Assembly: GCF_028294535.1 (NCBI RefSeq)
Contig: NZ_JAQBIE010000004.1
Location: 124,001 to 188,000, forward strand
Source: Paracoccus onchidii
GTDB lineage: Bacteria; Pseudomonadota; Alphaproteobacteria; Rhodobacterales; Rhodobacteraceae
DNA: 64,000 bases
Reading direction: 5' to 3'
Shown here piece after piece: positions 5,470 to 7,497 of the stretch. Both the position numbers and the translations under genes were made by a program. Under the pieces are notes generated by a model. That model did not search any database and was not told the origin of the DNA. It worked only from the letters and a program-made list of their open reading frames with translations. The stretch's first letter is position 1, and each line of letters starts with the position of its first letter.

Positions 5470-5991
5470 ATGAGCCTGCGTCCCATTCTGATCCATCCCG
5501 ATCCCCGCCTTAAAAAGGTGGCCGAGCCCGTCGCCCGCGTCACGCCCGAAATCGAGGCGCTGGCCGATGACATGCTGGCCACAATGTATGATGCGCCCGG
5601 CATCGGTCTGGCCGCGCCCCAGATCGGAGTTCTCAAGCGGATCTTCGTGATGGATGCGACCCGCGACCCCGAGGCCGAACGCCAGCCCTTGGTGCTGATC
5701 AACCCGGAGATCAGCTGGTCTTCGGAAGACCTGAACACCTATGACGAAGGTTGTCTGTCGATTCCTGACCAATATGGCGACGTGACCCGCCCCGCGCAGG
5801 TCCGGATGCAGTGGCTGGGTCTGGACGGCAAGACACATGAGCGGGATTTCGACGAACTCTGGGCGACCTGCGCCCAGCACGAGCTGGACCACCTGAACGG
5901 CATTCTGTTCATTGATCACATGTCCGCCATCAAGCGTCAGATGATCACCCGCAAGATGGTCAAGCTGAAGCGCGAGCGGGCGCGCGGTTGA
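5470..5991 (+). CDS. def: Peptide deformylase
   Basis: Def removes the N-formyl group from nascent proteins with an Fe(II)-type metal. All three family motifs are intact in the 173-residue product: GIGLAAPQ (44-51), EGCLSIP (93-99, metal ligand Cys95) and HELDH (137-141, two His ligands and the catalytic Glu). This is therefore the working enzyme of the pair. A second, altered copy follows after about 70 bp, and then fmt, the transformylase that makes the formyl-Met whose formyl group Def later removes. The three genes probably form one operon. Confidence 0.95.
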   Translation: MSLRPILIHPDPRLKKVAEPVARVTPEIEALADDMLATMYDAPGIGLAAPQIGVLKRIFVMDATRDPEAERQPLVLINPEISWSSEDLNTYDEGCLSIPDQYGDVTRPAQVRMQWLGLDGKTHERDFDELWATCAQHELDHLNGILFIDHMSAIKRQMITRKMVKLKRERARG

Positions 5992-6063
5992 AAGGATGCG
6001 GCTGCGGATGGCCCGATCTTCACGCAGCCAGATCCGGTGACATGATTTAAGGACCCAGACCCG

Positions 6064-6567
6064 ATGACCGTTCGCGCCTGCCTGCCCTATGGCGATCCCA
6101 GATTGCACCGACCGGCCGCACCGGTCGAATCCGTCACCCAGACGGTTCGCATGATCTGGGACGACATGATCGACACGATGGAGGCCATGCCCGGTGTCGG
6201 TCTTGCTGCGCCCCAGATCGGCATCATGATGCGGCTGGCGGTCGTGGATGCCTCGGACAAGCGGGGTCAGGCTGTCAGGATGGCCAATCCCGAAATCCTT
6301 CATTCCAGCATCAAGCTGCGCAGCCATGAAGAGGCCAGCCCGAATCTGCCCGGCGTCTCGGCGCTGATCGAACGGCCGCGGGCTGTCACGGTCCGTTTCC
6401 TGAATTTCGACGGGGAAATCGAAGAACGCGATTTCGTCGGCCTTTGGGCGACCAGCGTTCAACATCAATGTGACCATCTGGACGGGCGGTTGTTCGTCGA
6501 TCACCTGTCGCCGTTACGGCGCAAGATGCTTGTCCAGAAATCGACCAAACTGGCCCGCAAGGCCTAG
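6064..6567 (+). CDS. Peptide deformylase-like protein with altered active site
   Basis: The 167-residue protein aligns end to end with the Def encoded just upstream and keeps motif 1 (GVGLAAPQ, 44-51). Motif 2 reads EASPN instead of EGCLS, so Ser92 replaces the metal-ligand cysteine. Motif 3 reads HQCDH instead of HELDH, so Gln135 replaces the catalytic glutamate, while both histidines remain. Loss of a ligand and the general base predicts no deformylase activity. The frame is open and uninterrupted, so this is a kept paralogue and not a decayed pseudogene. Roles such as a Def or Fmt partner or a peptide-binding protein are speculation. Confidence 0.82.
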   Translation: MTVRACLPYGDPRLHRPAAPVESVTQTVRMIWDDMIDTMEAMPGVGLAAPQIGIMMRLAVVDASDKRGQAVRMANPEILHSSIKLRSHEEASPNLPGVSALIERPRAVTVRFLNFDGEIEERDFVGLWATSVQHQCDHLDGRLFVDHLSPLRRKMLVQKSTKLARKA

Positions 6568-6603: not shown

Positions 6604-7497
6604 ATGCGAGTGATCTTCATGGGAACGCCCGAATTTTCGGTGCCGGCGCTTCAGGCGATTGCAGCCGAACACACGGTCGTCGCGGTCTACAGCCAGCCAC
6701 CTCGCGCCGCGGGCCGGGGCCAGAAAGCGCGACCTTCGGCCGTCCACCGGCAGGCCGAAGAACTGGGCCTGACCGTGCGCACGCCACTGAAACTGCGCGA
6801 CGAGGCCGCGATCCGTGAATTTCGCGAGCTCGATGCCGATGTCGCGGTGGTCGTGGCCTATGGGCTGATCCTGCCGCAGGACATTCTCGACGCGCCGCGC
6901 TATGGCTGTCTGAACATCCATGCCTCGCTTTTGCCGCGCTGGCGTGGTGCCGCACCCATTCATCGCGCCATACTGGCAGGTGACGCGGAAACCGGCGTTG
7001 CCATCATGCAGATGGCGGCGGGGCTCGATACAGGGCCGGTCATCACCCAGAGCCGAACAGAAATCGGCGCCGAGGAAACCACCGTCGATCTGCATGATCG
7101 TTTGTCACAGATGGGCGCACAGCTTATCCTCTCCACCTTGGAATCCCTGCCGGCAACAGGGACGCCCCAATCGGAAGGGGGGGTGCTCTATGCCGAGAAG
7201 ATCGAGAAATCGGAAGCTCGCATCGACTGGGCCCGCTCTGCGACCGAGGTCGATCGCCAGATTCGCGCCCTGTCGCCCTTTCCGGGGGCCTGGTGTGACA
7301 TTGCCGGTGAAAGGGTAAAGCTCCTGCGCAGTCGCCTTAGGGACGGCGTGGGTGAGCCCGGACAGGTTCTTGACGGATTCCGGGTTGCCTGTGGCACGGG
7401 GGCCGTGGAAATCACGCAGGCTCAGCGAGCCGGTAAAAAGCCGATGAATGCGCAGGATCTGCTGCGCGGGTGGATTCTTCCTTCGCGGCTGTCCTGA
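6604..7497 (+). CDS. fmt: Methionyl-tRNA formyltransferase
   Basis: Fmt formylates initiator Met-tRNA using 10-formyl-tetrahydrofolate. From ATG 6604 (after a GGGGG ribosome site) the 297-residue product begins [16 protein letters not shown]. It has the catalytic stretch [16 protein letters not shown] (Asn and His of the formyltransferase fold), the Asp of GLDTGPV, and the C-terminal OB-like domain starting near SPFPGAW. A start eight codons earlier (6580) would add residues absent from the family. It lies 36 bp after the def paralogue and closes this operon. Confidence 0.95.

Follow-up and report, generated by a model that had tools for sequence, protein, structure and literature searches.

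Why would a bacterium retain a second peptide deformylase (PDF) gene whose product lacks catalytic residues, and retain it between the gene for removing the N-terminal formyl group and the gene for adding it? The question arises in Paracoccus onchidii, placed by its GTDB lineage in the genus Paracoccus and the family Rhodobacteraceae, within the window, the whole 64,000-nucleotide stretch of DNA that was analysed (G000:C4:124001-188000; genome 4.08 Mb). Among the 80 named relatives listed, the nearest belong to Paracoccus, followed by allied genera such as Thioclava, Frigidibacter, and Defluviimonas; a motif count on the 80 named loci caught neighboring genes and was left out. The genome holds two matches to PF01327, the canonical def and a pseudo-deformylase paralogue that we call PS (Table 1). 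The downstream ORF at 6604-7497 is taken to be fmt from its sequence features. Gaps of 72 nt (def-PS) and 36 nt (PS-fmt) separate the three genes, and a promoter and terminator scan gave nothing informative. A first-pass annotation of this DNA had described PS as an intact frame in the def-fmt operon that aligns along its whole length with Def, with Ser92 in place of the metal-ligand Cys, Gln135 in place of the catalytic Glu, and motif I and both motif III histidines retained. That description is correct: residues 1-166 of PS align with Def at 43% identity, both replacements and the retained elements (including His134 and His138) are found in the alignment, and the frame is open throughout between def and fmt.

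Table 1. Features of the def-PS-fmt locus, in positions of the window.
Feature	Position	Strand	Basis
def, canonical peptide deformylase, 173 aa (GIGLAAPQ, EGCLS, QHELDH)	5470..5991	+	ORF and profile search
Possible ribosome-binding site of PS, AAGGA	6049..6053	+	read by eye
PS, pseudo-deformylase paralogue, 167 aa	6064..6567	+	ORF, alignment, profile search, predicted structure
PS motif I GVGLAAPQ, kept	6193..6216	+	Gln51 invariant in 163/163 orthologues
PS motif II altered, EASPN for EGCLS (Cys to Ser92, Leu to Pro93, Ser to Asn94)	6331..6345	+	alignment
PS Ser131 for Cys129 (E. coli numbering)	6454..6456	+	alignment
PS motif III altered, QHQCDH for QHExDH (Glu to Gln135; His134 and His138 kept)	6460..6477	+	alignment
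PS basic C-terminal helix, residues 150-166	6511..6561	+	model and charge count; likely equivalent of the ribosome-binding helix of E. coli PDF (PMC8712518, PMC5591237)
fmt, methionyl-tRNA formyltransferase	6604..7497 (alternative in-frame GTG start 6580)	+	name from sequence; relatives by phmmer

The catalytic center was read by matching PS to E. coli numbering, in which Cys90, Leu91, Ser92, Cys129, and Glu133 correspond to Ser92, Pro93, Asn94, Ser131, and Gln135 of PS. In PDF, Glu133 is the general base and the Leu91 amide may help to hold the formyl group. Aligned to Def, PS keeps motif I, the first Glu of motif II, Gln51, His134, Asp137, and His138. Its motif I fits the pattern G-phi-G-phi-A-A-X-Q; it departs from motif II EGCXS, reading ExSP[NCH] in 163 of 163 orthologues, and from motif III HExxH, reading HQxDH in all 162 orthologues in which this motif is readable. 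Two fixed changes go beyond those of the first-pass annotation, namely Pro93 for Leu (163/163) and Ser131 for Cys129 (162/162 readable). In Salmonella PDF, activity requires Cys90, and a Cys130 to Ser mutant, probably altered at the equivalent of Cys129, retains zinc and about half of the activity (PMC7683392). Docking places PDF ligand contacts at Glu133, Gln50, and the Leu91 backbone (PMC4964514). Because three losses are fixed and the Cys90 data are published, there are strong grounds in the sequence to infer that PS is very probably devoid of deformylase chemistry.

It is improbable, on the same residues, that PS is still an enzyme, be it a weak deformylase under special conditions or a metal-dependent hydrolase with a Ser/His/His site. 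Such activity would fit the two histidines, Gln51, and the substrate cavity, all invariant or nearly so, and it has parallels among type 3 PDFs with changed motifs, which are argued to be possibly active under stress and some of which are reported active in T. brucei (told in PMC12690207). Three separate catalytic elements have been replaced at once and fixed, however, including the Cys that the Salmonella enzyme requires (PMC7683392). Profile models accept PS: Pfam Pep_deformylase matches it at E 1.4e-39, and NCBIfam NF001159 (129.3 against a cut-off of 125) and TIGR00079 (125.8 against 103.95) score it above their thresholds, so public annotation probably names PS a peptide deformylase.

The changes are a property of the family. 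A protein search of 198 evenly drawn Rhodobacteraceae genomes gave a match in 192; 150 loci (L003-L152) were taken from the search rows, and the remaining 48 genomes were searched separately. PS is present in 163 of the 198 genomes and, summed over the sets, in 148 of 174 of high quality. All 150 copies at L003-L152 carry ExSP followed by N, C, or H, together with His-Gln, and the other PDFs in these loci carry Cys and His-Glu in 228 of 229 cases. Eighteen further genomes, chosen by match to the His-Gln pattern, contributed 13 copies with Ser-Pro in 13/13 and His-Gln in 12/13; the thirteenth ends before motif III, hence the 162 readable orthologues. Within Paracoccus, a PS-like match occurs in 39 of 41 genomes, and the same changes appear in 29 of 29 further copies read. 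An accident of one genome, or chance, is ruled out by the recurrence of the same changes in 163 orthologues. The first-pass annotation had called for a homologue alignment and had set against its own reading the case in which most orthologues restore the Cys/Glu pair. The alignment shows both C-to-S and E-to-Q conserved, and none of the 163 copies scoring nearer to PS than to Def restores the pair.

Two other frames depart from the canonical motifs. The sole exception among the 229 other PDFs reads ENALS and QQVMDHL, and a PDF frame at 574 on the minus strand of L410 has EGCLS but QHKLDH. These motifs suggest that other PDF paralogues may also lose activity now and then.

PS is absent, fragments aside, from 35 of the 198 genomes (26 of the 174 of high quality, two of these 26 without any PDF found), so its role is dispensable in places. 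The last 30 genomes searched contain no intact PS; 25 of them have a PDF, with Cys and His-Glu in the complete ones, and the other five have none that was found, probably through assembly gaps. A single PDF is present in 22 of the 30, so that both accessory copies, PS and the third paralogue def2, tend to be missing together. One genome (G136, L195) has def-def2-fmt without PS. Remnants are seen in G157, a draft genome 80% complete with a broken PS-like frame, and in G098, with a short PS piece at a contig end.

Where PS occurs, its position is nearly constant. In each of the 163 loci it comes after def or def2, and in all 156 loci where fmt is seen, fmt comes after it. The order is def-PS-fmt in 78 loci and def-def2-PS-fmt in 77, plus one more with fmt in two pieces; with fmt unseen, six loci read def-def2-PS and one def-PS. 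The gap from the preceding gene to PS has a median of -4 nt and is below 50 nt in 155 of 163 loci, and the gap from PS to fmt has a median of 3.5 nt and is below 50 nt in 118 of 156. In Paracoccus, one of 29 stretches lacks a PDF before PS; in G586, of the same genus, def lies about 3 kb off on the other strand.

Genes that are adjacent and mostly overlapping could encode partners, and PS might serve Def, or an assembly of Def and Fmt, as a regulatory subunit, a dead copy steering a live one in a heteromer. Other enzyme/pseudoenzyme pairs work as such heteromers. Because 79 of the 163 loci, that of the window among them, show no def2, def and fmt are the constant candidates for a partner, and PS has conserved residues of its own outside the catalytic motifs (for example Trp32, Met42, Ala59, Val61, Ser64, and Ala74). 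Two weak tests gave no support for a complex: a read-through chain of Def, linker, and PS, modelled on 14 paired rows, came out as two confident domains with a pTM of 0.50 and no confident interface or mutual placement, and Def of genomes with PS differs, at the cut-off used, from Def of 13 presumed later-loss genomes only at positions 65, 105, 157, and 171, none of them telling. An alignment of Def and PS rows for the joined chain (A2) was dropped because the Def rows aligned onto the PS half. On balance we consider the subunit role rather unlikely.

Selection on PS is as strong as on its neighbors. Nei-Gojobori dN/dS was computed within Paracoccus only, from 30 PS, 29 def, 15 def2, and 19 fmt sequences. 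The medians are 0.171 for PS (435 pairs), 0.219 for def (406), and 0.196 for fmt (171), as the purifying selection proposed for checking by the first-pass annotation would predict; for def2 the median is 0.426 (95 of 105 pairs usable). Codon choice speaks to individual residues. The codon for Ser92 is of the AGY type in 115 of 163 copies and of the TCN type in the other 48 (AGC at 6337-6339 in the window); for Ser131 the split over 162 copies is 70 AGY to 92 TCN, and for Gln135 it is 150 CAG to 12 CAA (CAA at 6466-6468 in the window). Since a switch between AGY and TCN costs at least two base changes, Ser92 and Ser131 themselves appear to be selected. It is therefore extremely improbable that PS is a decaying relic of a duplication. 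Decay would account for PS being missing or a fragment in 35 of 198 genomes, for the broken-looking frame in G157, and for the two of 163 copies (L082, L100) in which no start codon was found near the expected site, and single genomes may indeed be losing PS. For the family, a relic or pseudogene is ruled out by the dN/dS and the switching of serine codon sets, and the copies are near-uniform in length, at 162-179 aa save one at a contig end.

PS also has a history of its own. In a quick-method tree of 104 PDFs (24 PS, 22 def, 18 def2, 14 single-PDF, and 14 + 12 outgroup rows), PS is one clade with SH-aLRT 100 and a long stem of 1.25 changes per column. Its branch point falls, with weak support, within canonical Defs from the family and from other alphaproteobacteria, and the def2 sequences form a clade of their own (support 88). 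As this tree reads, PS arose once, from a canonical deformylase lineage. On a tree of def plus fmt, built from 56 of the 154 PS genomes that were usable, 26 genomes lacking PS, and 8 of 29 outgroup rows, presence and absence of PS need at least nine changes, a sign that PS may have been lost several times and that some early branches perhaps never carried it; many forks are weak in both trees.

Beyond the family, the His-Gln pattern, which misses copies that read His-Gln-Cys like the window's PS, matched 37 of 385 genomes of the class and 26 of 398 of the phylum. One match was read from each of 30 class genomes, and a PDF was found in only four, all Rhodobacteraceae; 24 of the 26 phylum genomes are Rhodobacteraceae with PS, and in the other two the match is another protein. 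No PS-type PDF from outside the family is thus seen among the pattern matches read, which cover one match from each of 30 of the 37 class genomes and the 26 phylum genomes. A mobile copy was considered and rejected, on counts by identity: identity above 60% occurs in one of 998 matching plasmid records, a 1.58 Mb replicon of Pseudorhodobacter turbinis, and all 153 matching phage records fall below 60%. Three viral contig relatives are PDFs with Cys and His-Glu. Taken together, the fixed changes, purifying selection, synteny, and single clade strongly support what the first-pass annotation had suggested, selection for a non-catalytic paralogue.

The retained parts of PS point to what such a protein could do. 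An alignment of the orthologues (A1) used 114 of them, thinned from 163. The AlphaFold model of PS (pLDDT 97.1, pTM 0.91) has E. coli PDF as its best three PDB matches, at TM 0.93-0.95 (0.95 to 1xen), and shows the PDF fold with a C-terminal helix at 150-166 that defines type 1B. Over cavity positions listed from E. coli contacts, mean entropy in PS is 0.35 bits against 1.13 elsewhere, and none of 20000 random position sets is as low; in Def the corresponding values are 0.12 and 1.03 bits. The cavity, with the lowest entropy, is therefore the best-kept part of PS, though less strictly kept than in Def. The C-terminal tail is basic, with a median net charge of +7 in PS, +8 in Def, and -1 in Def2. 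It is shorter in PS (median 17 residues against 22 in Def), and its helix varies more (entropy 1.12 against 0.58 bits). It is the likely counterpart of the helix through which E. coli PDF attaches to L22, at the exit of the ribosomal tunnel (PMC8712518, PMC5591237).

The paralogue def2 shows a different combination. Present in 84 of the 163 loci (for example L005), where it separates def from PS, it mostly encodes Cys and Glu and has motif I GRGLAAPQ with the Arg in about 100% of the 84. It is the fastest-evolving gene of the set (dN/dS 0.43) and lacks the basic tail. From these features, Def2 may be an active PDF without ribosome docking.

Because cavity and basic tail are both kept in PS, a ribosome-docked, non-catalytic binder of formyl-Met is favored, and among the roles that the first-pass annotation had offered (Def or Fmt partner, sensor of formylated peptides, regulator) the evidence leans toward binding of formylated nascent chains. 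We tentatively propose, at somewhat short of even confidence, that PS, as a fixed pseudoenzyme, sits close to the tunnel exit and takes hold of formyl-Met N-termini but leaves them uncut, and in this way competes with or paces Def. PS would be made together with Def and Fmt, would dock through a basic C-terminal helix like that of Def, and would hold formyl-Met N-termini by its kept cavity, two histidines, and motif I Gln; it could then act as a reader of, or brake on, deformylation. Pro93 removes a backbone NH that possibly holds the formyl group, so the affinity of PS may be low. A bolder version, which we consider somewhat unlikely, is a writer-eraser-reader operon in which Fmt would write the mark, Def would erase it, and PS would be the ribosome-docked reader deciding which N-termini keep their formyl group. 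A benefit of lower PDF activity is reported in Methylobacterium, where a less active def allele increases resistance to formaldehyde (PMC13131673).

Both active-site cysteines of Def are serines in PS, which would also suit a stress device, either a decoy for natural PDF inhibitors or a cysteine-free stand-in when NO or oxidants hit Cys90 of Def. We regard this as quite improbable. Hydroxamate inhibitors need the PDF metal, which PS may hold poorly, and with its Glu replaced PS could hardly take over the Def reaction, even though natural PDF inhibitors do exist (PMC12690207) and NO nitrosylates PDF Cys90 (PMC7683392).

How does PS compare with known deformylases? It shares with type 1B PDF (E. 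coli Def, PF01327) the whole-length fold, motif I, the metal His pair, the basic helix, and the place by fmt, and differs in having Ser, Pro, Asn, Ser, and Gln for Cys90, Leu91, Ser92, Cys129, and Glu133 and in forming its own clade. With type 3 PDFs (Archaea, trypanosomes, and accessory PDFs of S. aureus and S. pneumoniae), reported to be weak or inactive (PMC5591237, PMC12690207), it shares changed catalytic motifs; unlike them, it has an unaltered motif I, the same changes to motifs II and III in every member, and a type 1B tail. PS falls outside type 3 as worded in PMC12690207, by changes in motifs I and II, since its motif I is intact, and would fit the wider wording of PMC5591237, which describes type 3 by changes at one or more motif residues and by a C-terminus whose length is not conserved. 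The 104-PDF tree contained no known type 3 sequence.

The locus itself has a published counterpart. Clustered PDFs are reported for 98.1% of the reference species of Rhodobacterales, 62.5% of these genomes having three side by side, and the rationale of the clustering has been called "elusive" (PMC12690207); the PS locus is very probably the same genomic feature. The sections of that paper on clusters and types make no mention of an inactivated member with fixed changes. Among the titles listed by a literature search that reached few subscription papers, none describes PS. The word deformylase is absent from the main text, supplements aside, of an R. sphaeroides Tn-seq study (PMC5513736), and in PMC3024229 deformylase comes up for B. 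subtilis and in a reference, and nowhere else. The clustering is already published; of the inactivated, fixed member we found no earlier report.

These findings carry a warning for databases, as automatic annotation probably labels PS-type genes as active peptide deformylase. Deformylation takes place in nearly all bacteria and is commonly regarded as unregulated housekeeping. A fixed inactivated paralogue, selected like def and fmt and lying beside them in 163 of 198 genomes, suggests that the formyl mark is regulated or read in this family, and gives a concrete starting point for the published question of why PDF genes are clustered in Rhodobacterales.
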